A stretch of DNA of 64,000 nucleotides, taken from assembly GCF_030486595.1 (NCBI RefSeq), contig NZ_JAUJZH010000038.1, forward strand, positions 1-64,000, read 5' to 3'. Below, one piece after another: positions 35,190 to 62,781 of the stretch. Below the pieces are notes generated by a model. That model made no database searches. It worked only from the letters and a program-made list of their open reading frames with translations, and was not told the origin of the DNA. Numbering within the stretch: position 1 is the first letter of the stretch; each line of letters begins with the position of its first letter. Source of the stretch: Variovorax ginsengisoli (lineage in GTDB: Bacteria; Pseudomonadota; Gammaproteobacteria; Burkholderiales; Burkholderiaceae_C). The translations under genes were made by a program, and so were the position numbers.

Positions 35190-35730
35190 AAACTCAGGAG
35201 GATTTCGTTCGCCCCTCCAGACCGTTCCCAATGCGGCCAGTGTCCAAAGCCCTCCATGCCAACGATGCCTGGCAGGCCGGGCAAAGCACGGCGCAACGTT
35301 TTGGGTGCATCGCGGGGAAGTTCGTTGAGGTTGACGTCTCTCCCGTAGAGGTGGAAAGATGGGGGCCAACGGTCGTGACAATAGCCTTGGTTCGCTCGAA
35401 CATCGCGGAGAGCTGAGCCGTGTCGTTCGCGTCGGCCTCCTCCAGCAGAGTGTCCTTCGGCGCCCCGAGCTGATCGCGCACCTTTGCCAGTTTGGCTTGA
35501 CTGCGACCGGCCATGGCCCACTTCACCTTACCGCCCACGCCATAGCGCCGCGCGAAGTGTTCCGCGACGAGTCGGCCTGTGTAGCCGCTCGCCCCATAGA
35601 CAAGAATGTCGACCTCCGCCGCCGGAGGCTCCCTTCAGAGAATCGCACCTGCTTCATGCTCTTCGGTCCAATTCGTCTGCGCTGGCGAGCGTTCTTCGTA
35701 GGCTTTATCGGCGCGGCCCATTGCGAAATG
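35190..35730 (-). pseudogene. 5' part of a saccharopine-dehydrogenase-like gene, inverted partial copy
   Basis: The minus strand from about 35625 reads VDILVYGASGYTGRLVAEHF, then GGKVKWAMAGRSQAKL and DANDTAQLSAMFERTKAIVTTVGP, before the homology ends at about 35340. It is almost identical in bases to the start of the intact gene at 47284, and the upstream 100 bases (35625-35725) also align with the leader at 47190-47283. The start codon and a few bases are missing (CCTCCGGCGGCGG instead of CCTGCCATGAACCCGGCGGCGG). It is a dead duplicate. Confidence 0.88.
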
Positions 35731-46427: not shown

Positions 46428-46488
46428 TTAACTTCCAATTCCCGCGACTCGAGCAAATTTTGCCTTCGATTGCTCATGAGTCAGGCGC

Positions 46489-46995
46489 TCATTTTCTTAG
46501 CGGATCCCCTTGACTCAGGGCGGTTGAGGAAGGATCTCTGTCTCCTCGTTCGAGCGCGCGCGAAACGAAGTCGTGCGGGCCGAGCGTGCGGCCGTCCTGT
46601 GACTTCAACTCAAGTGGGCGGAGTTTTTCGTGCGTTTGTCGGTCCACCAGATCGTAGGAGAGTTGCCCGGGAGGGAAACAGAATTCTTCTCCCCATTGCC
46701 AAAGCGAGGCGACCACTAGGTAGAGCCGTTCACCTTTCTCGGTCAAGACATACTCTCTATAGGAGGATCCATCGGAGGCGGGTGCCGTGGTGAGAACGCC
46801 GCAGGCCACCAGCTTCCGCAGACGCGTGGTCAAGATGTTCTTTGCTAGTCCTAAGCTCCGCTGAAACTCCCCAAAACGCCGCGTTCCCGCCAAAGCGTCA
46901 CGAACAATCAGCAGCGACCACCAGTCACCAATTGACTCGAGGGATCGCGCGATCGCGCAAGTGCTGGTTTCCAGCGTTGTACGCTTGCCCTTCAT
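46489..46995 (-). CDS. HxlR-family transcriptional regulator
   Basis: A 168-aa winged-helix regulator. CAIARSLESIGDWWSLLIVRD and FGEFQRSLGLAKNILTTRLRKL are the HxlR DNA-binding fold, followed by YVLTEKGERLYLV. Cys13 is the only N-terminal Cys and could sense electrophiles as in some family members. AGGAG precedes the ATG at 46995. It diverges from the reductase gene at 47284, with two direct repeats in the shared promoter region. Confidence 0.9.
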   Translation of the reverse strand: MKGKRTTLETSTCAIARSLESIGDWWSLLIVRDALAGTRRFGEFQRSLGLAKNILTTRLRKLVACGVLTTAPASDGSSYREYVLTEKGERLYLVVASLWQWGEEFCFPPGQLSYDLVDRQTHEKLRPLELKSQDGRTLGPHDFVSRALERGDRDPSSTALSQGDPLRK

Positions 46996-47114
46996 CTCAC
47001 TCCTTCATGCTGGTGTGTGCATGCCAGCGGCTTGTTGCTATAGACGATCCAAGTCCGACAGCGCCGAAGTCACTGTGGTGTCGTGTTTTGTATCAATTCG
47101 TATTCAAGCTGTGA

Positions 47115-47170
47115 GTTGCAAAAATAAACCAGGCAGAGTACCATGTCGGTTGTAGTTGCAAAGTTAAACT
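47115..47170. promoter_or_regulatory. Tandem direct-repeat operator, copy 1 (near HxlR)
   Basis: GTTGCAAAAATAAACC (47115-47130) and GTTGCAAAGTTAAACT (47155-47170) lie exactly 40 bases apart, four helical turns. The same pair with the same spacing occurs at 60524-60579. Located midway between the HxlR gene (ATG 46995) and the reductase gene (ATG 47284); the likely ligand is HxlR. Confidence 0.75.
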
Positions 47171-47283
47171 GATCTGTTGAGACATTTCCTGGTGGGGCGC
47201 CCCGATGAGGCCTGCGAGGAATGCTTGCCAGCTCGGACAAATTGGAGCGAAGAACAAGTGCGATTAGCTAAAGGGAGCCTGCC

Positions 47284-48423
47284 ATGAACCCGGCGGCGGA
47301 GTTCGACATTATTGTCTATGGGGCGAGCGGCTACACAGGCCGACTCGTCGCGGAACACTTCGCGCGGCGCTATGGCGTGGGCGGTAAGGTGAAGTGGGCC
47401 ATGGCCGGTCGCAGCCAAGCCAAACTGGCAGAGGTGCGCGATCAGCTCGGGGCGCCGAAGGACATGCCGCTGGTGGAGGCCGACGCGAACGACACGGCTC
47501 AACTCGCCGCGATGATCGAGCGGACCAAGGCGATTGTGACGACCGTTGGCCCCTATCAGTTCTACGGCTCGAACTTGGTGGCCGCCTGCGCGGCTGCGGG
47601 GGTTGACTACCTGGACTTGTGCGGCGAGCCCGGCTGGATCCGCCAGATGATCGATGCGCACGAGGCGACGGCGAAGGCGTCCGGCGCCCGGATCTTATTC
47701 TCATGCGGATTCGATTCTTTGGTGTTCGAGCTGGGGGTTTATTGCGTCCAGGAGAGGGCGAAGGCGAAGCTGGGCGCCCATGCGCCGCGCGTGAAGGCCC
47801 GGCTACGAGGCATGCAAGGCGGCCCCTCAGGGGGCTCGGTCGCGAGCGTGATGGCCACGATGGCGGCGGTTCAGAATGACGCTATGCAGCACGCGGTCAT
47901 GATGAGCCCGTTCGGCCTGACGCCTGGCTTCGAGGGGCCAGCTCAGCCATCTGGCAACGAGGTCGGAAATGACCCTGACGTGGGGCCCGTCGGGCCGTTC
48001 ATCATGGCGATGCTCGACACCAAGAACGTCCATCGTTCGAACCTGCTGATGGGCCATCCCTATGGCAGGGATTTCCTCTACGACGAAATGGTAGTCGGCG
48101 GCGGCGAATTACCGAACGTCGAGGATATGGGACCCCTGCCCAAACCCGGCGAGGGGCCGACTAAGGAGGAGCGCGAGGCCGGCTTCTACGACATCCTGTT
48201 CATCGGAATTGGGGCGGATGGGCGACAAGTACGCACGTCAGTGAAGGGCGACATCGACCCGGGCTATGGCGCGTCATCGAAGATGCTGGCCGAAACGGCG
48301 ATCGCTCTGGTCGACGCGCAGGACGTGCCGGGTGGCATCTGGACCCCTGGTGCTGCGCTGCAAGGCAGCCTGATTGAGCGGCTGCAGAAGCACGCAGGCG
48401 TGCGTTTCAGCATCGAGGATTAG
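47284..48423 (+). CDS. Saccharopine dehydrogenase-like NAD(P)-binding oxidoreductase
   Basis: A 379-aa protein of the saccharopine dehydrogenase NADP-binding family, the branch that includes mycobacterial trans-acting enoyl reductases. The Rossmann start is DIIVYGASGYTGRLVAEHF. Further blocks are KAIVTTVGPYQFYGSNLVAA, YLDLCGEPGWIRQMID and RILFSCGFDSLVFELG. GGGAGCC precedes the ATG. Likely an HxlR-controlled reductase acting on an enone or lipid-like substrate; substrate unknown. A dead partial copy exists at 35190-35730. Confidence 0.87.
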   Translation: MNPAAEFDIIVYGASGYTGRLVAEHFARRYGVGGKVKWAMAGRSQAKLAEVRDQLGAPKDMPLVEADANDTAQLAAMIERTKAIVTTVGPYQFYGSNLVAACAAAGVDYLDLCGEPGWIRQMIDAHEATAKASGARILFSCGFDSLVFELGVYCVQERAKAKLGAHAPRVKARLRGMQGGPSGGSVASVMATMAAVQNDAMQHAVMMSPFGLTPGFEGPAQPSGNEVGNDPDVGPVGPFIMAMLDTKNVHRSNLLMGHPYGRDFLYDEMVVGGGELPNVEDMGPLPKPGEGPTKEEREAGFYDILFIGIGADGRQVRTSVKGDIDPGYGASSKMLAETAIALVDAQDVPGGIWTPGAALQGSLIERLQKHAGVRFSIED

Positions 48424-48515
48424 CCATCCAAGCCACCGTGGCCGCACAAGAATGCCACTCTCCTATTCGTTTCTCGCCTACACAACCCAGAGCCACAGAA
48501 AGAGGAAAAAAGATC

Positions 48516-48917
48516 ATGCCACTCGTACGCGTTACTATGATTAAAGGCAAGCCCGCCGAATATATTAAGCAGCTATCACAGAGCATTTATGACACCCTCG
48601 TTGAGGAATATCTCATGCCTAAGAACGACATGTTCCAAATCATTGAACAGTTGGAGCCTGGGGCGCTCATATACGATCGGCAGTTCGGGATCGACGGCGA
48701 ACGAAGCGACGATTTCATCCTCATCAACATCGAGTCCGACGCAAGGCGACGCGATGAGAAGCAGGCGTTCGTGGCCCGGCTCGTCGAGAAGCTTGCGGCG
48801 TCGCCAGGCCTGTCGCCGGACGACGTTTTCGTCCGCCTCTCGGCGAACACCGTAATGGACGATTGGTCGTTCGGGGGCGGCAAAGTCGCCTCCGATATCG
48901 AATATCCAGCGGGATGA
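48516..48917 (+). CDS. Tautomerase-family protein
   Basis: A 133-aa protein beginning MPLVRVTMIKGKPAEYIKQL. After Met removal the N-terminal Pro is the general base of the tautomerase superfamily. The QFGIDGERSDDFILINIE strand-helix layout is that of the MSAD-like/tautomerase_2 group. AAAGAGGAAAAAAG precedes the ATG at 48516; the frame extends to 48438 without homology. It follows the HxlR-linked reductase by about 90 bases and probably belongs to the same transcript. Confidence 0.87.
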   Translation: MPLVRVTMIKGKPAEYIKQLSQSIYDTLVEEYLMPKNDMFQIIEQLEPGALIYDRQFGIDGERSDDFILINIESDARRRDEKQAFVARLVEKLAASPGLSPDDVFVRLSANTVMDDWSFGGGKVASDIEYPAG

Positions 48918-49438
48918 GAAGGGGATGGCAGGCGGCTCCATAAGGCGATCGGAACATCAACCGCAAGCTGATCGACGAGTTGCGCACCTTTTTCGACGTG
49001 CTTTCGGTGTTTGAGGATCCTCACGGCAACGATCTGATGAGGCTCGAGACGCATTTATCACCTCGAAGTCGAAAGTCGCTACGCCATCGCACCAAGCGCC
49101 GCACAACCCGCGCCGTTAGTTCGAAACAGGGTAGTAGTCCGCTCAAGGCCGTGGTTGACCCTCGTGAGGCTCAGGGCGTTACGTCGATGATGTGCTGGAG
49201 CAGAGCGAACGCCACTCGCCAGGCGTGGCCGTCGCAGTGAACCGTCACTGTGCGCTGGTTGATGTGCACGACCTCCCCGACATGTCGCTTCAGATTCTGG
49301 TCTGCGAAGCAGACCCGTTGTCCTACGCGGAAGTCCTCTTTGCGGTGAAGATCGGCCGGCGCCAACACTCCACGACTTCACTTCCGACAGCTTGTGCTCA
49401 AGGCGCGGATCGCGCGAGAGCTTGAAGCCGCTTCAGGC
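48918..49438. other. Mostly non-coding, one small minus-strand ORF
   Basis: About 520 bases. The minus frame 49171-49368 (65 aa) reads FRVGQRVCFADQNLKRHVGE and VVHINQRTVTVHCDGHAWRV, which resembles small SH3-like proteins, but it lacks a clear ribosome site; probably a remnant. The rest shows no gene. Confidence 0.45.
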
Positions 49439-49546: not shown

Positions 49547-49679
49547 GGCCCTCTTGACAGGCCGTTAGCCCGTCAGTTGCCTCATAGCTTGATCGCTTGA
49601 TCTGGGCGAGACGGTCGCAACCGGGCTCCGGGGTCCCGTCGAGGCCGGACTGACCACAGTGGGTTTCGGCGAGAGTTGG

Positions 49680-49718
49680 GGTAAACACTGTTAGCGACTC
49701 CTGGTTAACAGCGTTACC
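49680..49718. promoter_or_regulatory. Paired palindromic operator, site C
   Basis: GGTAAACACTGTTAGC (49680-49695) and GGTTAACAGCGTTACC (49703-49718) start 23 bases apart. The block GGGTAAACACTGTTA (49679-49693) is identical to the reverse complement of 34306-34320 in site B. It lies 55 bases before the ATG of the Bug-type binding protein, where a repressor would block transcription. No TetR gene is adjacent, so control by a distant TetR (34432 or 15578) is implied. Confidence 0.75.
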
Positions 49719-49772
49719 ATCTGGGGCGGAAGTCTCACGGTGATCTTCCGCCTTTAACAACAGGAGACCGCA

Positions 49773-50792
49773 ATGAACTTACGTTTGGATTGGTATGGAA
49801 CGGTTCGCAGCGCAGCAACGGCGCTGATCTTGGCAACTTGTGCTTGGCATGCTTCAGCACAGTCCGGTTACCCGAACCGGCCGGTTGTGGTACGGATGGC
49901 CTATCCCGCAGGTGGACCTGCAGATTCCGCTCTTCGCGATGTGCTGCCGGTGCTGCAACGTGAAATCGGGCAGCCAGTGGTTGTTGAGAACATGCCGGGA
50001 GCCAACGGCTCTATTGCAGCGATGAATGTGCAGCATGCAGCAGCAGACGGCTACATGCTTTTGGGTACGGTGACGAGCGATCTGATCTTGGCGCCTCTGA
50101 TTATTCCAACTGCGAAGTACAAGCCTCAGGCGTTCCAACCTGTTGGACTGCTCGGTTCGGGTGACCTCGTTTTGCTCAGCAGTCCAGCGTACAATTTCAA
50201 GAGCGCTGACCAATTGATCGAATACGCGAAGTCCAGCGGGAAGGAGATGTCGATCGGCAATTGGGGCGCGGGCTCTCTGACACACGTTGTTGCTGCGGAC
50301 TTCGCCGTAAGGGGTGGCATCAAGCTACTGCATGTGCCCTACAAGGGCGCCGCACCCATTATTCCGGATCTTGGTAGCGGGCAGATCGATCTGACTTTCG
50401 CGCCGATGGGCGGCTCGCTCGTGGGTTTGATCAAAGCAGGGATCGTGAAGCCAGTCGCGATTGCTGCAGACAAACGCAATCCGTTGTTACCGGATGTGCC
50501 CACCATCAATGAAAGCAAGCACGTCAAGGATTTTGCCTATGCTGCGCGCTCCGCAGTCTTCGCTCCGCCCGGCACGCCAGAAGCCGTGATTGCACGCCTC
50601 AATAAGGCCATGAACGTCTACATTGCCAGCGCAGAAGGGCGTGCGCGTCAGGAGACCATTGGTGCATCGCCGCTAGAGCCGTTGTCGGTGAAACAGATGA
50701 ACGAACTATTTCAGGCGGAGTCCACAACTATGATGCGCGCGGCAAGTGCGATAAAGCCCCAAACCGGCCGCCAGGAAGGACGAGCTGAATGA
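49773..50792 (+). CDS. Bug/TctC-type tripartite tricarboxylate transporter binding protein
   Basis: A 339-aa periplasmic binding protein. A signal peptide ends in CAWHASA before QSGYPNRPV. The Bug fold blocks are VVVRMAYPAGGPADSALRD, QPVVVENMPGANGSIAAM, LLHVPYKGAAPIIPDLGSGQ and LPDVPTINE. Bug proteins bind carboxylates and often lack their own membrane partners, as here (no TctA/TctB). Its stop overlaps the next start (ATGA), linking ligand capture to a 3-hydroxyacyl-CoA dehydrogenase. GGAGACCGCA precedes the ATG. Controlled by operator site C. Confidence 0.92.
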   Translation: MNLRLDWYGTVRSAATALILATCAWHASAQSGYPNRPVVVRMAYPAGGPADSALRDVLPVLQREIGQPVVVENMPGANGSIAAMNVQHAAADGYMLLGTVTSDLILAPLIIPTAKYKPQAFQPVGLLGSGDLVLLSSPAYNFKSADQLIEYAKSSGKEMSIGNWGAGSLTHVVAADFAVRGGIKLLHVPYKGAAPIIPDLGSGQIDLTFAPMGGSLVGLIKAGIVKPVAIAADKRNPLLPDVPTINESKHVKDFAYAARSAVFAPPGTPEAVIARLNKAMNVYIASAEGRARQETIGASPLEPLSVKQMNELFQAESTTMMRAASAIKPQTGRQEGRAE

Positions 50793-51769
50793 AAGTAGCA
50801 GTTGTCGGTGCTGGTCTGATTGGACAGGCGTGGGCCATCGTCTTTGCCCGTGGTGGCTGCGAGGTGAGTCTGTGGGATGGGAACTCACGCGCTCTTGAAA
50901 GCGCCGTGCCAGCCATCGCCCGGCGACTGTCCGATCTGAAAGATTATGGACTCGTGAGCGATGTAGATGAAGTGCTAAAGAAGCTGCTGCCAACTTCCAA
51001 TTTGGCGGATGCCTTGGTCGGTTCGCACTATGTCCAGGAAAGCTTGCCCGAAGTGCTCGAGTTGAAGGTCGAGATATTCGGCCGCTTGGATGCGCTCGCA
51101 CCCGGTGGTGCCATTTTGGCAAGCTCCACTTCCGGCTTCCCTGCATCCGCCTTCACGCAAGGCCTCCCTGGGTGTCAGCGATGCCTGATTGCGCATCCGG
51201 TCAATCCGCCGTACCTGATTCCCGTCGTCGAGTTGTGCGGAGCACCGTGGACTTCATCAGCGGCGATCGAAGGTGCACGTTCCTTGATGGAGAGCATCGG
51301 CCAGCGGCCTGTGGTGGTGAAACGCGAAATCGATGGTTTCATTCTCAATCGCTTGCAGGGTGCTTTGCTGCAGGAAGCGTTCTGGCTGGTCGAAAACGGG
51401 TATGTTGACGCCGCCGGACTGGATGCGACGGTGAGTGAAGGATTGGGTCTGAGGTGGGCATTTATGGGACCCTTTGAAACCATTGACCTCAATGCGCCTT
51501 CCGGGCTGTCTGACTACTGTAAGCGCTACGGCGGCATGTACCAGTCGTTCGAGCAGTCCACGAATTCACGAAAAATGGGCCAGGGTTGGTCGCCGGAACT
51601 GGTAGAGACGCTCAACGGCCAACGTCGGGAGACTCTCCCGAGCTCAGAGTTGGCTGAGCGCCAAGCTTGGCGTGACCGTCGGCTCATGCAATTGATGGTA
51701 CATAAGCAGAAGGCCGCACATGCTGAGAACGTCACCAAACTGTCTCCAGAGGCCGAGCGTGGACGCTAG
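50789..51769 (+). CDS. 3-hydroxyacyl-CoA dehydrogenase-type oxidoreductase
   Basis: A 326-aa protein of the 3-hydroxyacyl-CoA dehydrogenase superfamily, lambda-crystallin/carnitine dehydrogenase branch. The NAD turn is VAVVGAGLIGQAWA. The catalytic His-Asn region is RCLIAHPVNPPYLIPVVELC, with the Ser in LASSTSGFP. Free-standing domain, no fused hydratase. It oxidises a beta-hydroxy acid or its CoA ester. Translationally coupled to the Bug protein, so it may act on the same imported acid. Confidence 0.9.
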   Translation: MKVAVVGAGLIGQAWAIVFARGGCEVSLWDGNSRALESAVPAIARRLSDLKDYGLVSDVDEVLKKLLPTSNLADALVGSHYVQESLPEVLELKVEIFGRLDALAPGGAILASSTSGFPASAFTQGLPGCQRCLIAHPVNPPYLIPVVELCGAPWTSSAAIEGARSLMESIGQRPVVVKREIDGFILNRLQGALLQEAFWLVENGYVDAAGLDATVSEGLGLRWAFMGPFETIDLNAPSGLSDYCKRYGGMYQSFEQSTNSRKMGQGWSPELVETLNGQRRETLPSSELAERQAWRDRRLMQLMVHKQKAAHAENVTKLSPEAERGR

Positions 51770-51790
51770 GCTCTTGGCACCACATCGCCG

Positions 51791-52130
51791 GTGAATGAGA
51801 TGAAGCATGCGCACGTTGAAACCAATGGCATCACGCTGAACGTCGTTGAGGCAGGGGATGGCAAGCCAGTCTCTTTTGCGAGGGGCTCCCCAACACGTGG
51901 CTTGATTGGCGGTTGCAGTCGGAAGAGCTACCGCGCAGCATATCGACGGATCTGCGCAGTTGCGGCAAGTCGAGCGCGCTGCCTGAACGTATGCCTATAC
52001 CGTCCTGCACACCGTGGTTGAGTTCATGAGTCTGCTCGATGCGTTAAATCTTCCCGGTGCGGTCCTGGTCGGATGGGGCACTCAACCTGCTCTTTACGCC
52101 GATCAGGCGTTCGCCTCTCACCAAGGCATA
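51791..52130 (+). pseudogene. Epoxide hydrolase N-terminal remnant
   Basis: The start MKHAHVETNGITLNVVEAGD is the N-terminus of a soluble epoxide hydrolase. After GKPVSFARGSP the frame is lost; later pieces EVMSLLDALNLPGAVLVGWG and QPALYADQAF appear in another frame, but the nucleophile elbow GHDWGA is destroyed (GWGTQ). Roughly one third of a gene remains. It runs directly into the next epoxide hydrolase gene. Confidence 0.7.
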
Positions 52131-52150
52131 TTCATTCTCGGAGAACGGAC

Positions 52151-53287
52151 TTGATTAAGCCTTTCCACATCGACATCCCCAAAGTCCGGATCGATCAGAT
52201 CCGAGAGCGCATCGAACAATATAACTGGGACGGACTGGCAGACGCAGGCGGATGGCGGTCCGGGGTCGGCCTGGCCGATCTGCGTCGCCTCACGGACTAT
52301 TGGTTGAGCCAATACGACTGGAGGGCCGCGGAGGCGCAATTGAATGCGCAACCGCACTTCCTCGCCACTATTGACGGCCAAGATATTCATTTCCTCCACA
52401 GCAAGGGCGATGGGAGCAGGGCGCCAGTCATCCTGCTGCACGGTTGGCCGGGATCGTTCCTTGAGTTCAGGCATATCGTCGACCATCTCGTCGCGGACGG
52501 GCACGATGTGGTGGTCCCATCGCTGCCCGGTTTCGCATTTTCGGGGCGTCCTCATTCTCCGATTGGTTCGCGTCGGACTGCTATGTTGTGCAACGAGATC
52601 ATGGAGAGGCTCTTTGGCACCAAGCGCTATCTGGTACAGGGGGGAGATTGGGGCGCTGCGGTCGCTGCATGGATCGCTCACGATTTTCCCGAACGCTGTT
52701 ACGGCCTACATCTCAATATGATCATGGTTCAAGCCAGAGATGCGATACCTGAAACCCAAGAAGAGCGCGGGTGGGCGGAGGCTCGTCAGCGGACGACCGC
52801 CGACGAAATGGGCTACGCCATCGAACAGGGAACCCGGCCCCAGACACTGTCTGTTGCGCTTGCGGACAGCCCGGTCGGGGTGGCGGGTTGGATCCTTGAA
52901 AAGTTCGCCGTATGGTCCGACGTGCCACGCGATGCCGAAGGGCGTCCCGACGTCTGGAAGGCATTCAGTGAGGAGTTTCTGGTCACCAATCTCATGTTGT
53001 ATCTCGTGACGAACGCGATCGTCACGTCAACCTGGTTCTACCGGGGCAATATCCTCGAGGGCGCGCGCCTGTTCGACCCAGGCAACCGCGTCACGGTTCC
53101 GACCGCCGTCGCCGCGTTTCGAGATCCCGTTTTCCTGATGCCTCCGCGTTCACTAGTTGAAAAAAGCTACAACATCGTCCAATGGAGTGACATGCCCGCG
53201 GGTGGTCACTTTGCGGCGTTGGAGCAACCAATGCTGCTGCTGGCCGATCTTCGTCGGTTTTTCGATGCGCTCGAACATGGGAAATAG
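52151..53287 (+). CDS. Epoxide hydrolase with EHN domain
   Basis: A 378-aa epoxide hydrolase of the juvenile-hormone/microsomal type. The N-terminal EHN domain (IPKVRIDQIRERIEQYNWDG) wraps the alpha/beta core. HGWPGSFLEF is the oxyanion motif, GGDWGA carries the nucleophile Asp, STWFYRGN supplies a lid Tyr, and DMPAGGHFAALEQP has the catalytic His. It hydrolyses epoxides to diols. I chose the TTG at 52151, with GGAGAA about seven bases upstream; the ATG at 52073 lies inside the upstream remnant. The start is therefore uncertain, the rest secure. Confidence 0.85.
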   Translation: MIKPFHIDIPKVRIDQIRERIEQYNWDGLADAGGWRSGVGLADLRRLTDYWLSQYDWRAAEAQLNAQPHFLATIDGQDIHFLHSKGDGSRAPVILLHGWPGSFLEFRHIVDHLVADGHDVVVPSLPGFAFSGRPHSPIGSRRTAMLCNEIMERLFGTKRYLVQGGDWGAAVAAWIAHDFPERCYGLHLNMIMVQARDAIPETQEERGWAEARQRTTADEMGYAIEQGTRPQTLSVALADSPVGVAGWILEKFAVWSDVPRDAEGRPDVWKAFSEEFLVTNLMLYLVTNAIVTSTWFYRGNILEGARLFDPGNRVTVPTAVAAFRDPVFLMPPRSLVEKSYNIVQWSDMPAGGHFAALEQPMLLLADLRRFFDALEHGK

Positions 53288-53546
53288 ACGGCTCAAGGCC
53301 GATTGCGGGTCAACCGTCGGCCTTGTTCCACCGCGCGCCAAAGAGGGCATCGAACTTGAGGGAGCCACAGTGTTCACAATCGCTCGGCGCAATCCGGCCG
53401 GCAAGGGGCCATCGTCAACATCGGATCGGTCGTCGACCTAAGCACCGGAGATCGGTCTGGGCGAAGCCCTGCAGAACGGCTTTCATGGGCTCACGGGGCA
53501 CGCGATCAATCTCTGACTCGATCACTTTCGTATAAGGATTCTTTGA
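53288..53546. other. Spacer with a short SDR-like scrap
   Basis: About 260 bases before the old yellow enzyme gene. At 53405-53440 a plus frame reads GAIVNIGSVVDL, matching the Ser-loop strand of a short-chain dehydrogenase, with nothing else of the gene. No terminator seen. Confidence 0.4.
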
Positions 53547-54659
53547 ATGACCCAGGTTCTGTTCTCGCCGCTGAAGCTCGGCGCATTGACGCTTTCGCAT
53601 CGCGTGGTGATGGCGCCGGTCACCCGGATGCGCTCGTCCCAACCAGGCAACGTGCCACACGCTCTCAATGCGGAGTACTACCGCCAGCGAGCCTCGCGCG
53701 GCGGATTGATCATCACCGAGGGCGCGCAGATCTCGCCGACCGCCCAGGGGATGCCGGCCACGCCGGGCATCCACAGCCAGGCACAGGTCGAGGGTTGGAA
53801 AGCCGTCACGCAGGCCGTGCACGACAAGGGTGGCTTGATCTTTCTGCAGCTCTGGCATGTCGGACGCATCTCGCATTCGTCGCTCCTGGGTGGCGAACTT
53901 CCCGTGGCGCCGTCCGCCGTCGCGGCCCCCGGCAATGCGTTCAAGGCGAACTTTGAACGCGCTCCGTTCGAGACTCCGAGAGCGCTGGAAACGGCAGAGA
54001 TCGCTTCGGTGATCGCCGACTATGCCCAAGCGGCGCGCAATGCGAAGCAGGCCGGCTTCGATGGCGTGGAAGTCCACGGGGCCAACGGATACTTGCTGGA
54101 GCAGTTCCTGCAAAGGCGCAGCAACCGGCGCACCGACGCTTACGGCGGCTCGATCGAGAACCGCAGCCGCATCGTGCTGGAGGTGGTTGAGGCCGTGTCT
54201 GCCGTATTTGGCGCCGATCGCGTCGGCATCCGTCTGTCCCCCTTCGGCGTGGCCAACGGCAGCGGCGAGGACGAGCCGCTGCCGTTGTATACCTACCTGA
54301 TTCAAAGCCTCGCACGCTTGGACCTGGCTTATCTGCACCTGATCGAGCCGCGGGCCAGTGGCGCGGGCCAGGCCGACGTTGATCACCAGAACGTGCCTTT
54401 TGCGTCCGAGCTGTTCCGACCGCACTGGCCGAAAGCCCTGATCGCGGCCGGGAACTACAGGCCCTACACCGCGGCGGCGGCCATCGAATCGGGCCGCGTA
54501 AACGCGATCGCGTTCGGACGCCTGTTCATCGCGAACCCTGATCTCCCCGAGCGCGCACGACGGGGCACCGACCTCAATACCTACGACCGTGCCACCTTCT
54601 ATGGTGGCGGCGTCGAAGGCTACGTGGACTATCCGACGCTCGAAGCGCTGGACCAGTGA
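53547..54659 (+). CDS. Alkene reductase, old yellow enzyme family (NemA-like)
   Basis: A 370-aa FMN TIM barrel. FSPLKLGALTLSHRVVMAPVTRMR starts the barrel, GGLIITEGAQIS follows, the substrate pair is in VEVHGANGYLLEQFL, and RRTDAYGGSIENRSR and FGRLFIANPDL complete the FMN site. It reduces activated C=C bonds, nitro compounds or nitrate esters with NAD(P)H. It starts a rightward set with the MFS exporter, coupled by a GTGA overlap. Confidence 0.92.
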   Translation: MTQVLFSPLKLGALTLSHRVVMAPVTRMRSSQPGNVPHALNAEYYRQRASRGGLIITEGAQISPTAQGMPATPGIHSQAQVEGWKAVTQAVHDKGGLIFLQLWHVGRISHSSLLGGELPVAPSAVAAPGNAFKANFERAPFETPRALETAEIASVIADYAQAARNAKQAGFDGVEVHGANGYLLEQFLQRRSNRRTDAYGGSIENRSRIVLEVVEAVSAVFGADRVGIRLSPFGVANGSGEDEPLPLYTYLIQSLARLDLAYLHLIEPRASGAGQADVDHQNVPFASELFRPHWPKALIAAGNYRPYTAAAAIESGRVNAIAFGRLFIANPDLPERARRGTDLNTYDRATFYGGGVEGYVDYPTLEALDQ

Positions 54660-55897
54660 GCGGTAGACACGTGACGCGCGCATCACCGCCAGCACCCCGA
54701 TTTCCAGTCGAATCTACCGTTCAGTTGGAGGGGCGTTCACTCACTGGAGGCGTGCTGTTCCTGCTGGCCGCACTGGCAGCCTTGGGCGCACTGGCCACCA
54801 ACATCATCCTTCCAGCATTCCCCTCGATGGGCGAGGACCTTGGCGTCTCGGTCCGGGATCTCGGCGCTACGCTGAGCAGCTTTTTCGTAGCCTTCGCGCT
54901 GGGTCAGTTGTTCGTCGGACCGCTTTCGGACCGGTTTGGACGCCAGCGGCTGGTGCTGATCGGCTTGGCCATCTTCATCGTTGGCAGCCTGGTCTGTGCG
55001 ATAGCGAGCACGCTGCCGCAGCTCATCGGTGGCCGGGTGGTCCAGGCGCTGGGCGTGTGCGCGACGTCGGTGCTGTCCCGCGCCATCGCGCGCGACCTAT
55101 TCGAGGGCCAGGAACTGGCGCGTGCGCTTTCCTTGACTATGGTGGCCATGGCGGCTGCGCCGGGATTTTCTCCGCTGATAGGCAGCGCCCTGGACAGCCT
55201 CTTCGGCTGGCGGTCTGCCTTTTTCGTGATTTCAGCGCTGGCATTCGCGCTGGCCGTTGGATACATCGCCAAGCTGGGTGAGACGCACGCGCCGGACCGG
55301 CGATCCGCGCTCTCGCCCACAAGCGTCGCTGCAAGCTACAAGCAGCTGGCCTTTGATCCTCGTCTCATGGCGCCCGCCCTGTCTGTGAGTCTGGTCGTCG
55401 GGGCGCTCTATGCCTTCTTTTCTATGGCTCCCGCCATTCTGATCACCGGCTTCAGGCTCTCGCCGCTGACGTTCGGGTTGTTCTTTGCATCGACAACTTT
55501 CGTCGTGTTCGGGTCAGGCCTACTGGCGCCGCGTCTCGCCAAACGATGGGGACCGGTCGTGGCGGCTCGTGCTGGTGTTTCCATCGCACTTGTTGGAAGT
55601 GCGGCATTGCTGTTCGGCAGAACAGAGTTCGTCTCCTTCAGCGTGTATCTGACCATCTTCCTGTTCGGGATGGGCATCTTCAATCCACTCGGAACGGCCA
55701 TCACGCTGCAACCCTTTGCACAGCAAGCAGGAGCCGCTTCGGCGTTGCTGGGATTCCTTCAGATGGGGTGCGCGGCGCTGGCCATCACCTTTGGAGGGAT
55801 GCTGATCTTGCCAGCGTATACCGCTTTGGGTGTCGTATTGTTTACATCGCTTGCGGCGTCCTTTCTATGCTTTTTGTCCGTACGAACGACGAGGTGA
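54656..55897 (+). CDS. MFS drug transporter, Bcr/CflA type
   Basis: A 413-aa permease with 12 predicted membrane segments. ATNIILPAFPSMGEDLGVS and FALGQLFVGPLSDRFGRQRL (motif A of the DHA1 family) match the Bcr/CflA multidrug exporters. The start GTG at 54656 overlaps the stop of the reductase gene; a Met does not occur until about codon 50, inside the first transmembrane region, so the GTG is preferred. It probably exports a compound related to the OYE reaction, or simply a toxic electrophile. Confidence 0.87.
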   Translation: MSGRHVTRASPPAPRFPVESTVQLEGRSLTGGVLFLLAALAALGALATNIILPAFPSMGEDLGVSVRDLGATLSSFFVAFALGQLFVGPLSDRFGRQRLVLIGLAIFIVGSLVCAIASTLPQLIGGRVVQALGVCATSVLSRAIARDLFEGQELARALSLTMVAMAAAPGFSPLIGSALDSLFGWRSAFFVISALAFALAVGYIAKLGETHAPDRRSALSPTSVAASYKQLAFDPRLMAPALSVSLVVGALYAFFSMAPAILITGFRLSPLTFGLFFASTTFVVFGSGLLAPRLAKRWGPVVAARAGVSIALVGSAALLFGRTEFVSFSVYLTIFLFGMGIFNPLGTAITLQPFAQQAGAASALLGFLQMGCAALAITFGGMLILPAYTALGVVLFTSLAASFLCFLSVRTTR

Positions 55898-55906
55898 GGC
55901 TGACGT

Positions 55907-56149
55907 ATGTCGGCGGATCACCCAGGGAGAAATGCACTGAGCTCCCAAAAGGAGAAATCATTCAAGTCTGTCGCAGGGCTTGTCGGGGGGCTGGCGCTGG
56001 CGGGACTCTGGTTCGTATTTGTCTATTGGGGCTGTCGCGACGACGGTAAATGGACTATGTGTTCGGTAGACGGTTTCCTCGGGGAGTTAGTCGAAATGTC
56101 AGACTGGATGACAGCCCGCAGGCATCTGCAGATACCCAAGCTCGAGTAG
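55907..56149 (+). CDS. Small single-pass membrane protein
   Basis: An 80-aa protein with one hydrophobic segment (VAGLVGGLALAGLWFVFVYW) and short charged ends; Cys residues follow in WGCRDDGKWTMCSVD. I do not recognise a family. It starts 10 bases after the MFS stop on the same strand, so it may be co-transcribed with the exporter. No ribosome site is obvious. Real gene plausible but not certain. Confidence 0.5.
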   Translation: MSADHPGRNALSSQKEKSFKSVAGLVGGLALAGLWFVFVYWGCRDDGKWTMCSVDGFLGELVEMSDWMTARRHLQIPKLE

Positions 56150-56254
56150 CGGCGATGAGCCGTTCGACGCCTTTCGAGCCGTGACTCTGCCCTGGCGTCA
56201 ATTCATCCATCGGATCCCACTGGCATGCCTGTCGAATTTGCCGAGTAAGACATC

Positions 56255-57406
56255 GTGAGCATCATCACCACAATTGAAGACCTGCGAGTGCTGGCACAAC
56301 GCCGAGTGCCGCGCATGTTCTACGACTACGCCGATTCGGGCTCTTGGACAGAGAGCACCTATCGAGCTAACGAAAGCGAATTCCAGAAAATCAAGCTTCG
56401 CCAGCGTGTGGCAATCAATATGCAAGGGCGGAGCACCCGAACGACAATGATCGGACAAGAGGTGGCGATGCCGGTGGCCATAGCCCCGACCGGATTTACC
56501 GGCATGCAGCATGCAGATGGGGAGATTCTTGCGGCACGCGCGGCTGAGGCTTTCGGAGTGCCTTTTTGCTTATCGACCATGAGCATCTGCTCCATGGAGG
56601 ATGTAGCAGCAAACAGCACTGCATCATTCTGGTTCCAGCTATACGTGATGCGCGACCGAGATTTTGTCACGCGACTGATCGAGCGCGCCAAGGCTGTGCA
56701 CTGTTCCGCTCTTGTTCTAACCCTCGATTTGCAAGTCCTGGGCCAGCGTCACAAGGATTTGAAGAACGGGCTATCTGCGCCTCCGAAGCCGACCTTGGCC
56801 AACCTGATCAACCTTGCAACCAAACCACGCTGGTGCCTTGGGATGCTCGGCACCCCACGGCGCACCTTCGGCAACATCGTTGGTCACGCGAAAGGAGTGG
56901 GTGATCTTTCGTCGCTCAGTTCTTGGACCGCAGAACAGTTTGACCCTGGGCTGAACTGGGCCGATGTGGAGCGCATCAAAAAGCTTTGGGGTGGCAAGTT
57001 GATTCTCAAAGGGATCATGGATGCACAAGATGCACGACTCGCGGTCAGCAGCGGCGCAGATGCGCTGATCGTGAGCAATCATGGCGGACGCCAACTTGAC
57101 GGCGCGCCGGCGAGTATCGAAGCGCTTCCGGCTATCGTCGAGGCCGTTGGCTCGCAAATTGAGGTCTGGCTGGACAGCGGTATCCGTTCAGGCCAGGACG
57201 TGCTCAAGTCCGTGGCCCTCGGCGCACGAGGCACGATGATTGGGCGCGCGTTTTTGTATGGACTGGGGGCCATGGGCCAAGCCGGCGTTACAAAGGCGCT
57301 CGAAATCATCCACAAGGAGCTGGACATCACGATGGCTTTCTGTGGTTGTCGGGACATCGGTGATGTGGATAGAAGCATCCTATTCGCCGGAAGCTTTCCG
57401 CGATAG
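56255..57406 (+). CDS. FMN-dependent alpha-hydroxy-acid oxidase/dehydrogenase
   Basis: A 383-aa protein of the glycolate oxidase/lactate dehydrogenase family. PRMFYDYADSGSWTE opens the fold, PVAIAPTGFTGMQHADGE binds FMN, STMSICSMEDVA follows, and the active-site Lys is in GKLILKGIMDA. VSNHGGRQLDG carries the catalytic His and Arg, and the phosphate site is WLDSGIRSGQDVLKSVALGA. Oxidises L-2-hydroxy acids such as lactate or mandelate. It starts at a GTG (56255). It stands about 100 bases after the small membrane protein and could share its transcript. Confidence 0.92.
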   Translation: MSIITTIEDLRVLAQRRVPRMFYDYADSGSWTESTYRANESEFQKIKLRQRVAINMQGRSTRTTMIGQEVAMPVAIAPTGFTGMQHADGEILAARAAEAFGVPFCLSTMSICSMEDVAANSTASFWFQLYVMRDRDFVTRLIERAKAVHCSALVLTLDLQVLGQRHKDLKNGLSAPPKPTLANLINLATKPRWCLGMLGTPRRTFGNIVGHAKGVGDLSSLSSWTAEQFDPGLNWADVERIKKLWGGKLILKGIMDAQDARLAVSSGADALIVSNHGGRQLDGAPASIEALPAIVEAVGSQIEVWLDSGIRSGQDVLKSVALGARGTMIGRAFLYGLGAMGQAGVTKALEIIHKELDITMAFCGCRDIGDVDRSILFAGSFPR

Positions 57407-57825
57407 ATGACTGAGTGAGAACAGAAAAAGTACCGCTGGTGACGAATCAATATTTGCTACTATGAGGTCGACCCGCATTCCCGAGAAAGGCGGTCACGCT
57501 GGTCGCGCTGTTTCACTGCCAGCAGCGGCAGCGACATCAGCGCGCGCATCATCGCGCTGAAGCTCGCCCAGCGCCGGGCAGCAGGTGGCGACAGCGGCGC
57601 CCGACGGCCATGCGTTGATGATGGCGAAGAGCGCCTTCACAATGACGCCGGCGATTTACCTGCAGATGTCCTTCGATGCGTCGCGGAGTTCGCCCCCGTG
57701 GCAAAGCGCGCCGAGGCGTCCTTCGTCGTCTTCGCGGTCATTCCGGCGGTGCCGGTGACCGAGACGAAGCCTACGCCAGGAAAATGCCGGCAAACTCAAC
57801 CTCTTTTCAGTTCTGGGAGTTGAGC
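57407..57825. other. Unassigned stretch
   Basis: About 420 bases with frames on both strands but no recognised motif. Some minus-strand frames look coding in composition ([14 protein letters not shown]), suggesting a decayed gene whose family I cannot name. Confidence 0.35.
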
Positions 57826-57924: not shown

Positions 57925-57945
57925 CGGCTGCGTCGCTGGCGTCTA

Positions 57946-58281
57946 GTGTAGAGCGCTCGATAGAGTTGAACTTATTTGATGCGGCACACCCCGACCTCGA
58001 CGGAGGTCGTCGTGCGCATTGCTCCAAGAATCGAACTGAGTGCCACTGTTCAACGAGAGTTGACGGCCCTGGCGCGCCGAGGCCGCGTCGAGGCTCGCGC
58101 GCAGCAAGGGGTCAAGATCGTGTTGCTGGCCGCTCAAGGCTGGCAGAACAAGGACATCGCCGCCGAGGTCGATCTGGATCGGAGCCAGGTGGCCTTGTGG
58201 CGCCAGCGCTTCCTGGACGGCGGGGTGGAGGCCCTGTTGCACGATGCACCGCGTCCCGGGCGCACCCCGAGCGTGACCGCA
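57946..58281 (+). mobile_element. IS630-family remnant, copy 3 (left end only)
   Basis: The left end GTGTAGAGCGC lies in CTAG (57943-57946), like copy 2. The transposase (ATG 57976) follows copy 2 almost base for base until about 58280 (GRTPSVTA), where it switches abruptly to the C-terminal end of an IS1634 transposase on the opposite strand. The DDE core is missing. Confidence 0.88.
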
Positions 58282-59810
58282 GGTGGCGAGCTCGGCCATG
58301 AGGGTGGAGAAGCTGTGCACCGGCGTGCCATCGGCCAGTGTATGGCGCGCTGCCTTGGCCAGCGCCGCCTTGGAGCGCGTGGCTGGCGCGACGGGGTCGC
58401 GCGTGGCCTTGGCAAGTTGGTCGGTGTCGGCGAACATCACCTCGCGCCAGGCCTCGCGCATGTGTGCCACTCGACGAAGTAGGCGAGCATGCACAGGCAG
58501 ATGTGCGCGGTGCGGTGGTGGATCGGGCGCACCTTCACGCGCGCTCAACCTTGTCCAGCGACTTGTAGTGGCGCACGCGGTCGGCCGAGTCCATCTGCGT
58601 GGGTGGCACCGACGTGCGGATGATGTAGAGGCCGTCCAGTGCCGCCTCGCCGGCGATGGCGTGTCTTGCGCGCGAAGGTGAAGGCGTTCTCGCCGATGGC
58701 CAGCTCGAGGTGCTTGGCCATCTTGTACTGGTTGACGACCTTGCCCACGATCTCCTCCTTCCCGGCGAGCTTGCCCGCGTCCACGCGGACCTTGATCGTC
58801 TCCAGGTGAGGCTCGGTGGCCGCGAGCAGTTCCAGCCGCTTGCGCGCGCGCAGCTTGGCCAGCTCTGGATTGCGGCACGCCACCCACCGTTCGCCCGGGT
58901 AGTCCGGCGAGTTCAGCTCGAGCAGATTGCGCTCGTCGAACAAGCCCAGCTGAAGATGGCCCTGCTCGACCAGCGCGCGGATCGACACGCTCTTGAGGGC
59001 CATGATCCAGCCGATACCATCGGCCTCGCGCATCTCGTCAATGGTCTTGTGCGACACCATGCCCCGGTCACCGACCATCACCATGCGCTCGATGCCGAAG
59101 TCCTCGCGCAATTTATGCGCCGCGGGCATGAAGGTTGTGCTGTCGGCCGTATTGCCCTCGTGCACCGACAACGCCACCGGGCAGCCGCGCGCATCGGGAG
59201 CAGGCCGTAGTTGACCTGCCGCGTGCCCTTCCTGCCGTCGCGGCTGTAGCCGAGCTTGGCCAGCGGACAGCAGCTGCCTTCGAAGTAGCTCGACGACAGG
59301 TCAAAGAGCGCCAGGGCGCCTGCGTCCAACTGGCGCGCGGCGAGCCTCTTCTGGGTCGCGCCCTGGCGCGCAAGCAGCCAGTCCATCGCTGCGTACAGGT
59401 CATCCTCGTCGGCGTCGGCGACACCGAAGTCCTCGGCCAGTGTCGTGGTTTGCCACCAGCGCGTGGTCGCGAGCTTGGCGTGCGCGGCGACGTTGCGATG
59501 CGATCATCGCGAGCACCAGGTCGCGCTCGCGCGAGGGCTTGGAGGCGATCAAGCCCGCCAAGCTCAGGCGCTGCATGGTTAGTGCAGCGGCTAGCACATG
59601 GCAATGCGAGCGCGATGCGGTGTTCTCCAAGCACTGCGCCGGCTGCAAGGCTTCGTCCCGTAGGGCGGCTCGAATGGCTTCAATCTACGCGGTCGACAAA
59701 CTTGACAGATTGGCCAGCGTGCGCTTGCCGACCTTGGAGCCTTCGCGATATGACTCGCGCAGCAGCACGGTGGGTGGCGAACCTCGGTTCGGCACAACGT
59801 GGGTATGCAT
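58282..59810 (-). pseudogene. IS1634-family transposase, multiply frameshifted and 3'-truncated
   Basis: Minus-strand pieces follow in order. They are VLLRESYREGSKVGKRTLAN (about 59700-59760), GLIASKPSRERDLVLAMIAS (about 59500-59560), LFDLSSSYFEGSCCPLAKLG (about 59230-59310), the large piece VHEGNTADSTTFMPAAHKLR to 58660 with MVMVGDRGMVSHKTIDEMRE, and MREAWREVMFADTDQLAKAT near 58420. Frames change at least four times and a stop is present near 59675. The C-terminal end is cut where IS630 sequence begins at 58281. Confidence 0.82.
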
Positions 59811-59947
59811 GCCTACTGGTCATATGTAGTGATCATTCAAGTACAAAAACATGCCTACATTCAGCAAGCCGAAAAAACACCTATCTCATTGAATCGAGAG
59901 GGATCATCGGCTCGAACGCCGCGCTGCGGCGCTGAAACTTAGGGCTA

Positions 59948-60410
59948 GTGCGGAATGCGCTCGAAATAGGTGAACATACTTGATGCGGCACACTCCGTTC
60001 TCGATGGAGGTCGCAGCCATACGCATTGCCGCGAAGATCGAACTGGATGCTGTTGCCCAACGAGAGTTGACGGCGTTGGCGCGTCGAGGCTCGTGTGTAG
60101 CAAGGAGCCAAGGTCGTTTTGCTGGCCGCTCAGGGCTGGCAGAACAAGGACATCGCCGTCGAAGTTGATCTGGATCGGCAGCAACTCGCCTTGTGGCGCC
60201 AGCGCTTCCTGGAGGGCGGGTGACGGCCCTCTGATGCACGATGCGCCGCGCCCCGGCGGGGGCGCACCCCCTGCGTGATCGTTGAGCTGGAATCGAGCAT
60301 CGTGGACAAGACGCTTCACGACAAACCCATCGCCGCCACGCACTGGAGCAAGCACGCGTAGGCTGGCCGCGCAGCTTGGGGTGGGTCGACGACGATTCGC
60401 CGCGTTCATG
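59948..60410 (+). mobile_element. IS630-family remnant, copy 4 (left part)
   Basis: Begins in CTAG (59945-59948) with GTGCGGAATGCGC, related to the end of copy 2. The transposase start MMRHTPFSMEVA is followed by diverged, frameshifted versions of AEQGHRRRS/WQNKDIAVEVDL and SSIVDKTLHDKPIAATHWSK; homology stops near 60410. Older and more decayed than copy 3, which argues for separate insertions. Confidence 0.82.
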
Positions 60411-60523
60411 CGGCGGGTGCATGGCCAGGCCTTTTGTTGCTCTCGACATCCAAGACCACCAATGGCGCCGAAATCGATGTGGGATTCGCATTCGGCACCA
60501 AATCGAACCCCTGAAAGATTTAA
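60411..60523. other. Unassigned spacer
   Basis: About 110 bases between the IS630 remnant and the repeat operator. No gene or hairpin recognised. Confidence 0.4.
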
Positions 60524-60579
60524 GTTGCAAAGATAAACCAAGTAAGGTAGCATGACCATAGTTGTTGCAAAGTTAAACT
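60524..60579. promoter_or_regulatory. Tandem direct-repeat operator, copy 2
   Basis: GTTGCAAAGATAAACC (60524-60539) and GTTGCAAAGTTAAACT (60564-60579), again exactly 40 bases apart, match the pair beside HxlR at 47115-47170; the right-hand 16-mer is identical at both loci. It lies about 245 bases upstream of the SnoaL-like gene. Probably bound by the same HxlR protein. Confidence 0.72.
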
Positions 60580-60823
60580 AGCCTGTCGGATCACATTGGC
60601 CCCAACTGCACGCCAGGTGAGCCAAGTCAAAGTCTATCGGGCCTGTTCGCGGCCGGTGCTGATCGGGGATTCACGGAGCTTGACGCGACAGCATGAAAAA
60701 CTGCGATCCCGCCGCAACTGACGTGGCCCTCGTTTACGCGGGGGGCTCGCCTGATGCGTCAATCGCTCGAGTCGTTCGCAATTCGCAACAATGTAACTAC
60801 AAGCAACCGAAAGGGCTAACTTC
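60580..60823. other. Leader region of the SnoaL-like gene
   Basis: About 240 bases between the tandem operator and the ATG at 60824. No ORF of note. A GAAAGGGC near 60810 may be the ribosome site. The long spacing may reflect an undetected promoter closer to the gene. Confidence 0.35.
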
Positions 60824-61213
60824 ATGACGACAACATCAACATCAACAGCCGAAGCCAACAAACACCTCGTCCTCAAGGCGGCGCAAGAACTCTTCGGAAA
60901 TCTGGACCTGACCGCGCTCGATCGCTATTGGGGGGATTCGTACATACAGCACAACCCGCTCTACCCGGACGGGAAGGAACAGATTCGGGCGCTTATCCAA
61001 GGCGCGATCGACAGCGGCATTCCGACGAAGGCAGAAGTAAAGCGAGTGGTCGCAGAGGGCGACCTCGTCTGGATTCACGCGAAGAGCTTCTTCTTCGGCA
61101 AGGAACTGGCGACGGTCGAAATATTCCGTGTCGAGAACGGGAAGATCGTCGAGCATTGGGATGTCATCCAGGAAGTGCCTGCGGAATCGGCCAACAGCAA
61201 TACAATGTTTTAG
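60824..61213 (+). CDS. SnoaL-like nuclear transport factor 2-fold protein
   Basis: A 129-aa single-domain protein: VLKAAQELFGNLDLTALDRY, WGDSYIQHNPLYPDGKEQIR, VAEGDLVWIHAKSFF and FRVENGKIVEHWDVIQEVP. This is the SnoaL/DUF4440 pattern with the conserved YIQHNP and EHWD blocks. Such proteins are cyclases, isomerases or binding proteins; function here is unknown. It is frequently found near HxlR and reductase genes, which fits the shared operator. The ATG is the first Met of a Thr-rich start. Confidence 0.85.
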   Translation: MTTTSTSTAEANKHLVLKAAQELFGNLDLTALDRYWGDSYIQHNPLYPDGKEQIRALIQGAIDSGIPTKAEVKRVVAEGDLVWIHAKSFFFGKELATVEIFRVENGKIVEHWDVIQEVPAESANSNTMF

Positions 61214-61227
61214 TCCTTGCCCGTTAG

Positions 61228-61400
61228 GTGACAGTGAACCAAGTAGGGCACGAGATCACAAAACGGAACAAGAGCATCCAGCCGACGCTAACGATCCGGC
61301 CGGCCTTCACTATGCAGATCATGGTCAGCAAGGACCTAGTGCTGCGGCCGGATCGGCCCTGGATCAGCCCCTGTTCTTTCAGCGGGGATTGTCGCAATGA
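61228..61400 (+). pseudogene. trbI: TrbI conjugation protein, C-terminal remnant
   Basis: The frame VNQVGHEITKRNKSIQPTLT and IRPAFTMQIMVSKDLVLRP is the C-terminal end of TrbI/VirB10 proteins of IncP-like mating systems. A single-base shift then leads to LDQPLFFQRGLSQ and a TGA at 61398 that overlaps the next ATG, the normal trbI end. The first 90% of the gene is absent. It shows that a conjugative element contributed to this region. Confidence 0.75.
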
Positions 61401-61507
61401 GCGCGATCAAGCTGCGGCTGGGATCTTTGCCGAATACCGCGATCATCAAGCTCACGGTGGCCCTGCCAGCCGATTTGAAGCAGCGCCAAATTAGTGTCGT
61501 GAGTTAG
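61397..61507 (+). pseudogene. DUF2274 protein remnant (trb operon)
   Basis: MSAIKLRLGSLPNTAIIKLT then VALPADLKQRQ matches the start of the DUF2274 family, small proteins encoded directly after trbI in Tn4371-like and related integrative conjugative elements. The ATG overlaps the trbI stop (ATGA). The gene is cut after about 30 residues where an IS630-type end begins (TA at 61492). Confidence 0.75.
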
Positions 61508-61829
61508 AAGTTCGCAAACAAAATCTCTCGACGCTTGCAAGGATGTGATCGGCAGTCTTGGACCGGAAGAACGGCTTGGGGTCGCTGTTGTTGACCTTGA
61601 TGCCTGCTGTGGTGCGATGCGTGCCGCGGCGGATGTACTTCTGCGTCAGGGTGGCGAACCAGCGTTCGACTTGGTTCAGCCAGGACGCAGAGGTCGGCGT
61701 GAAGTGCAGCTGAAAGCGCGGATGTCGGGCAAGCCAGTTCCTGCTGGTGGGAGTCTTGTGTGTTCCGTAGTCGTCCACCACGAGGTGGATGTCCAGCACT
61801 GGGCTGCTGCTGGTCTCGTGGACACCGAC
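61494..61829 (-). pseudogene. IS630-type transposase C-terminal remnant (different subgroup)
   Basis: Contains LDIHLVVDDYGTHKTPTSRN and PTSASWLNQVERWFATLTQK, the second and third DDE residues, then a deletion and IKVNNSDPKPFFRSKTADHI. The upstream N-terminal half is missing. A candidate outer end lies at GTGTCGTGAGTTAGAAG (61494), directly after a TA. Different from copies 1-4. Confidence 0.8.
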
Positions 61830-62105
61830 CTAAGCTTTTTGGGCTTTTTCGATCTCTATCGGACTGACGTAGCCCAGCGTCGAATGACGACGCGTCGGAT
61901 TGTAGAAACGCTCGATGTAGTCGAACACGTCAGCGCGTGCATGCTCCCTGGACCTGTACACCTTCCTGGCCGTGCGCTCGGTCTTCATTGAGCTGAAGAA
62001 GCTCTCCATCGCCGAGTTGTCCCAGACCTCGCCCGCGCGACTCATGCTGCAGGTGATGCCTTGCTCCTTGAGCAGCTCCTGGAAGTGCTCGCCGGTGTAC
62101 CGGGC
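61830..62105 (-). pseudogene. IS3-family transposase OrfB C-terminal remnant
   Basis: Reads ESARYTGEHFQELLKEQGIT, CSMSRAGEVWDNSAMESFFS, MKTERTARKVYRSREHARAD and FYNPTRRHSTLGYVSPIEIE, the last part of an IS3-type DDE transposase with the final Glu in NSAMESFF. The rest is missing on the upstream side, where an IS30 scrap begins. Confidence 0.88.
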
Positions 62106-62309: not shown

Positions 62310-62722
62310 GCCGGTGCCCTCGGGACGAACCAATGGCACGCCATCGTTGAGTGGCCGAACCATGTTCACCTTCAGTTCCAGCGTGGTGAATCCTTTGCCC
62401 CCAGGCAGCGTGGTGTGGATCGAGCACCAACCGCCGAGTCGAGCAAGGTCGCGAACCAGCCGCCATGCACCGTGCCCAACGGGTTGTAGTGCCGGTGCAG
62501 AGGCCGCCCCTGAAGAACAGCCTCGCCAGGCGCCATATGGATTGGGATGAAGTCAAGCGTGTCGCCAATAGGAGGTGGCGGCAGCTCACCTGCAAAGATG
62601 GCCTCGAACACCTCCATACTTGACCGACCGACAACGTCGCCGGCAACGCCGGGCGCGCCAAGGCGAGACCGTACAGCCTCTTCCTGGGCGCGCCAACGGG
62701 CAAGAACCTGATCAACCTCCAT
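62310..62722 (-). pseudogene. PaaI-type thioesterase, 3'-truncated
   Basis: The open part reads HRHYNPLGTVHGGWFATLLD, SAVGARS, the hotdog-fold active-site helix of PaaI thioesterases. A frameshift follows near 62400, after which LKVNMVRPLNDGVPLVRPEG is visible in the next frame before the IS30 scrap begins. The ATG at 62722 has a GGAG upstream. It is divergent from the MarR gene, a common thioesterase/MarR pairing. Truncated, probably inactive. Confidence 0.75.
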
Positions 62723-62781
62723 CTGTCGCTCCTTGTCGAGTCATCATTGCGTACACAACTATTGCAGCTACAATGTAGAAT
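62723..62781. promoter_or_regulatory. Divergent promoter between thioesterase remnant and MarR gene
   Basis: A 59-base AT-richer gap. ATTGCAGCTACAAT (62761-62774) has a small dyad ATTG/CAAT, a plausible MarR site overlapping the start of the marR-type gene, which would give autorepression. Inference from position. Confidence 0.45.

Follow-up and report, generated by a model that had tools for sequence, protein, structure and literature searches.

Why should the end of one conjugation gene and the start of the next lie among insertion sequences at the edge of a catabolic region, and did that region once travel on a conjugative element? The window analysed here comprises bases 1-64000 of contig C41 (67,613 bp), which belongs to a draft genome of 7.8 Mb in 86 contigs (G000; C20, C23 and C65 are further contigs of it). 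A first-pass annotation had read positions 61,228 to 61,507 as a trbI end overlapping a DUF2274 start, and had taken them as a sign that the catabolic region resided on, or received DNA from, a conjugative element.

The trbI and DUF2274 remnants and their borders

Both family assignments of the first-pass annotation held. Residues 2-39 of the frame opening at 61228 matched the last 38 positions of the Pfam TrbI profile (PF03743; 30.1 bits, E 5e-7), and residues 5-29 of the 36-residue frame at 61397 matched DUF2274 (PF10038; 22.7 bits, E 1.3e-4). Both scores lie slightly below the curated thresholds (35 bits for TrbI, 23.8 bits for DUF2274), which is expected because the pieces are fragments, and for neither piece did Pfam return a further family at E values up to 1. 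The IncP-type TrbI model was the sole and best NCBIfam match of the TrbI piece (21.1 bits, E 1.3e-4), far below its whole-protein cut-off; the DUF2274 piece gave no NCBIfam match. A six-frame search of the genome listed the TrbI piece at 28.1 bits and did not list the DUF2274 piece. At the DNA level, 61231-61480 aligned with the intact trbI-DUF2274 junction of C20 at 77% identity and 195 bits, the top score among 40 triplet-shuffled windows being 31.9 bits. The proposed ATGA overlap was likewise confirmed, the ATG at 61397 overlapping the TGA at 61398-61400. Of 31 loci examined for this arrangement, 7 lack trbI; in the other 24 the end of trbI could be read, and 23 of them show it; it is a standing feature of trbI-DUF2274 operons.

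The trbI piece is itself damaged. An 11-bp tandem duplication, missing from all 11 other aligned sequences (including one identical pair), shifts its frame, and downstream of the duplication the native trbI ending returns in another frame and runs to the stop. What is left of trbI has neither its start nor its body, DUF2274 lacks its remainder, no other transfer genes were found at this place, and as read from its sequence the stump is predicted to yield no working transfer protein. On the right, the DUF2274 piece ends where AGTGTCGTGAGTTAGAAGTTCG starts, at A61493. From this base the left end of an IS630-type element agrees letter for letter with the terminal inverted repeat (22 bp) of an IS copy found in C65, so that the range originally given, which ran to 61507, has to be shortened by 15 IS bases to about 61492. 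The IS630-type fragment is in turn cut at about 61801 by a transposase fragment with an rve domain. Within the IS-like region to the left of the SnoaL-like gene, DDE_Tnp_1 matched 58545-59177 at 21.4 bits (cut-off 23), and the remaining two frames tested there gave no family. One IS-like sequence occurs three times in the window (27647-28105, 57943-58280 and 59944-60405), the copies being mutually 78-96% identical.

Table 1. Features of the window around the conjugation remnant
Feature	Position	Strand	Basis
Cargo segment with saccharopine-dehydrogenase-like gene (47284-48423)	46480..49009	+	Homologous to C20/G002; Pfam
Catabolic module: TctC receptor, 3-hydroxyacyl-CoA dehydrogenase, epoxide hydrolase, MFS transporter, FMN-dependent dehydrogenase	49619..57700		Pfam
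Repeated IS-like sequence between module and SnoaL gene	57943..60405	-	Within-window repeats
Segment colinear with J22R193 contig 8, 13276-13460	60405..60592		85.7% identity
SnoaL-like gene	60824..61213	+	PF07366, 47.3 bits
Deletion junction, SnoaL flank to 3' part of trbI	61222..61231		AGG common to both sides
trbI 3' remnant, last ~53 codons, frameshifted	61231..61400	+	PF03743 positions 151-188 of 188
11-bp tandem duplication, two units (61350-61360, 61361-61371), 2 differences	61350..61371	+
DUF2274 5' remnant, ATGA overlap with trbI stop	61397..61492	+	PF10038 positions 3-27 of 69
Truncated IS630-type element, DDE_3 transposase C-terminus	61493..61801	-	PF13358, 42.2 bits
Transposase fragment with rve domain, abutting the IS630 fragment	61800..62099	-	rve_3, 47.2 bits; 88% to C23

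Counterparts of the two flanks in intact elements

The left neighbour of the remnant is a SnoaL-like gene, which in intact elements is the last cargo gene ahead of a LysR regulator gene in the traR position. It is 93% identical to C20:88273-88671 and 94% identical to its counterpart in Variovorax sp. J22R193. In the window, 8 bp separate the SnoaL and trbI flanks, and they join directly, with no IS between the gene and the trbI end. In C20 the trbI match starts at 102339, leaving a SnoaL-to-trbI gap of 13,667 bp; the gap is 13,666 bp in G002 and 13,667 bp in G262, a genome from another genus of the family that was compared for spacing only. At the junction, the left allele reads ...GTTAGG and the right alleles (C20) ...CAGG..., with AGG in common. 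In C20 the interval between the flanks codes for the LysR regulator, placed like traR, for TraG, which scores 1154 bits against the IncP-type TraG model, for a T2SSE-type ATPase in the TrbB position and for TrbC, TrbJ, TrbL, TrbG and TrbI, with trbD, trbE and trbF assigned by position only.

The core of the apparently complete element in C20 (32303-102695) runs RepA, ParA, RlxS-type relaxase, cargo, LysR, TraG, trb genes, DUF2274. Over 70 kb it is 98.0-99.7% identical to a region of G002 (C3, about 323440-396307), a near-identity between two species of the genus that, on sequence grounds, suggests recent transfer. The RlxS (DUF3363), RepA and TraG families each had one match in the genome, every one of them in C20, and no match on C41. 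Of the Tn4371-type int, parA and traG that the first-pass annotation had suggested looking for beyond the window, parA and traG are present in C20, together with RepA and RlxS, and not beside the remnant, and no int of Tn4371 type was identified. The nearest integrase found for the C20 core is a tyrosine recombinase (C20:18564-19898) by a tRNA-Phe gene; G002 too has a tyrosine recombinase gene next to tRNA-Phe, and the core faces it with the RepA end in C20 and with the trb end in G002. Between this integrase gene and the core lie four genes (C20:27110-32151) that, by eye, we take to resemble a DNA phosphorothioation (dnd) cluster. A second trbI stump of about 300 bp is found elsewhere in the genome in other surroundings (C23:137014-137310; 82% to C20:102118-102413), and there was no SnoaL match beside it in the C23 stretches compared.

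The cargo upstream of the SnoaL gene is also found in relatives. Segment 46480-49009 is 88.7% identical to C20:85269-87797 and 88.6% identical to G002, in both of which the SnoaL gene follows it within 0.5 kb. The catabolic module 49619-57700 is 92.3% identical over 8157 columns to positions 1606-9754 of J22R193 contig 8 (NZ_JASZYU010000008.1). On that contig the module is followed by the counterpart of 60405-60592, then by the SnoaL gene (60690-61228 of the window, 88.9%, being next in colinear order) and then by a LysR-traG-trb region (13854-22834) that is 90.7% identical to C20:87897-96910; J22R193 has contig breaks, and no particular trbI could be tied to its contig 8. Judged by these alignments, the window between 46.5 and 61.5 kb contains two stretches, both of which are carried as ICE cargo elsewhere, and the colinearity of contig 8, together with the SnoaL-trbI spacing in C20, G002 and G262, identifies 46.5-61.2 kb as Tn4371-type cargo from which the transfer module has been deleted. 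Descent of the catabolic region from a conjugative element is therefore borne out, through the comparison with C20, G002 and J22R193, for 46.5-61.5 kb, and the claim is limited to that stretch. Further cargo matches between C41 and C20 are scattered (35358-35730, 83%; 62315-63212, 71%; and, beyond the window, C41 64062-64985, 84%). Copies of the SnoaL 3' end occur at two contig starts (L037 1-162, the start of J22R193 contig 8, and L034 1-168), so that the 8.1-kb module in J22R193 appears to be flanked by SnoaL in direct orientation.

We searched 101 genomes of the genus with a 669-bp query (best 5 candidates per genome scored) and 399 genomes of the family (best 2). The SnoaL gene and the trbI end were adjacent in 1 of the 101 and 1 of the 399, our own genome only, and a probe of 3.7 kb from the catabolic module had matches in 2 of the 101, own included (best 2 candidates per genome); these counts describe the best scored candidates per genome and are not proof of absence. 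The 669-bp query matched in 56 of the 101 genus genomes; by eye from the match table, 23 of these matched the trbI-DUF2274 part and the other 33 no more than a short stretch of the SnoaL gene, and the SnoaL gene was matched over its length at 92% or more in three of the 101 (own, G002 and G015). Among plasmids, window 60800-61850 retrieved 541 records, the best 30 of which matched the IS region (16) or trbI-DUF2274 (14). The SnoaL protein retrieved 178, every one below 60% identity, so plasmids are no help in placing this gene. A literature search did not find the term DUF2274 among the matches listed.

Probable loss of the transfer module

We consider it very likely that the trbI-DUF2274 scrap is the right-hand stump of the deleted conjugation module of a Tn4371-type ICE, with 46.5-61.2 kb as its cargo. 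The ancestor would have been an ICE, integrated rather than a plasmid, with a Tn4371-type core (RlxS, catabolic cargo, LysR, traG and trb genes ending in trbI-DUF2274) that carried 46.5-61.2 kb. A deletion of about 13.7 kb between sites with no more than AGG in common would then have taken out all the DNA from just behind the SnoaL-like gene up to the point where ~53 codons of trbI are left; one such event at very short homology is the simplest reading of the loss. The stump may subsequently have gained the 11-bp tandem duplication with its frameshift, an IS630-type element would have cut off DUF2274, and the cargo would have been left unable to transfer itself.

The divergence of the scrap counts against this history. 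Aligned free of gaps, 61231-61487 is 83.3% identical to its nearest relative, on J22R193 C9, and 78.0% identical to C20; another trbI allele of J22R193 stands at 70% to the scrap. The cargo is closer to its relatives (88-94%), so that scrap and cargo need not have one common history. This invites the alternative that the scrap stems from another ICE or from an unrelated conjugative plasmid, and that an IS or illegitimate recombination set it down next to the catabolic genes; trbI-DUF2274 pairs do occur on conjugative plasmids, e.g., pPBL-H3, and an IS abuts the right side of the scrap. However, the SnoaL gene on its left precedes LysR-traG-trb in the same orientation in C20, G002 and J22R193, G262 has the same SnoaL-trbI spacing, and the join is direct and free of IS, which makes an unrelated source improbable. 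Within the trbI stretch (61231-61347) there are 17 differences to C20 and 21 to J22R193 C9, a ranking opposite to that over the whole scrap, and third codon positions hold 11 of the 17 and 15 of the 21. This excess suggests that much of the divergence predates decay, and the overall pattern that the backbone allele of the ancestor differed from that of C20. From these comparisons, cargo and backbone may have been shuffled ahead of the deletion.

Two further explanations bear on whether the junction and its open frame are what they seem. As the genome is a draft in 86 contigs and contains repeated elements, the junction might be an assembly chimera. Yet its flanks differ from the C20 alleles (93% and 77%), which are the sole other copy with both parts in this assembly, so that it is not a misjoined C20, and the scrap bears a duplication and an IS insertion of its own; a chimera is accordingly very improbable. 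Least credible of all is that the 88-codon frame at 61228-61494, open and with a GTG start, is a new functional small protein. It fuses the last TrbI residues to out-of-frame sequence, with no TrbI before profile position 151, a coding ancestor explains its third-position bias, and a match crossing the junction was found in no other genome of the genus among the best 5 candidates per genome.

Having preferred the deletion of a transfer module, we asked what it may mean for the stranded cargo. A decayed ICE is a known and ordinary kind of event; what is new here is the clear before-and-after comparison. It provides a testable series of events, in which catabolic genes become ICE cargo in a traR-proximal slot and the transfer module is then lost, and it implies that catabolic islands without conjugation genes may be ICE-derived, which one stump of the last genes of the operon can show. 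C20 and the stranded region share homologous flanks in one cell (2.5 kb at 89%, SnoaL at 93%, the trbI end at 77%), and the modules upstream of SnoaL differ between C20 and J22R193 contig 8. It is tempting to speculate that recombination between C20 and the stranded cargo could return the module to a working ICE, that dead ICEs serve as a reservoir of cargo at the traR-adjacent slot, and that the differences between the C20 and contig 8 modules are such swaps, although we regard this as rather unlikely.

Comparison with the Tn4371 family

A Tn4371-type ICE would be expected to have its own Tn4371-type tyrosine integrase and TTTTTCAT-like attachment sites. On C41 the only PF00589 match (window 19649-20110) is a short XerC/integron-like frame. 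The corresponding frame, 19556-20251 on the minus strand, was provisionally set aside as a candidate ICE integrase: it resembles XerC and integron integrases, the best model matching residues 45-205. Several plasmid relatives of this frame are annotated as site-specific or tyrosine-type integrases. No remnants of int, repA or a relaxase were found beside the scrap, which weighs against the reading as an ICE stump. Of the family's other features, the window retains trbI followed by DUF2274 with the ATGA overlap, both as fragments. The order cargo-traR (LysR)-traG-trb, kept in C20, G002 and J22R193 and, by spacing only, in G262, has been lost by deletion, and RepA, RlxS and TraG, which in this draft genome occur in C20 only, are missing. 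With its transfer module deleted, the window therefore holds a remnant of a Tn4371-type ICE rather than a member.

Two accounts of the family place the variable region of Tn4371 ahead of TraR and TraG, with the mating-pair genes after traG (PMC2789088, PMC11448139), and the second treats traR downstream of the cargo as a conserved feature (PMC11448139). According to the first, truncated elements were already suspected in 2009 from a missing trbI amplicon (PMC2789088). In the family, as both accounts present it for Tn4371 and ICEKKS102Tn4677, a LysR-type regulator, traG and trb come immediately after the catabolic cargo (PMC2789088, PMC11448139), a likeness to the elements described here that extends in the C20 relative to the RlxS-type relaxase, RepA and ParA, the comparison with Tn4371 being one of layout, not sequence. 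C20 also has the T2SSE ATPase as trbB within the Tn4371-type order. J22R193 contig 8 has the 8.1-kb module of the window, at 92%, with SnoaL next to it but, unlike the window, LysR-traG-trb present. The C20 and G002 elements share with the window the 46480-49009 segment, SnoaL and trbI-DUF2274, at 77-89% in the matching parts of C20 as against 98.0-99.7% between the C20 and G002 cores, and have kept their transfer module. In contrast to the Tn4371 family, the window retains the cargo but, of the transfer module, only the final ~260 bp.
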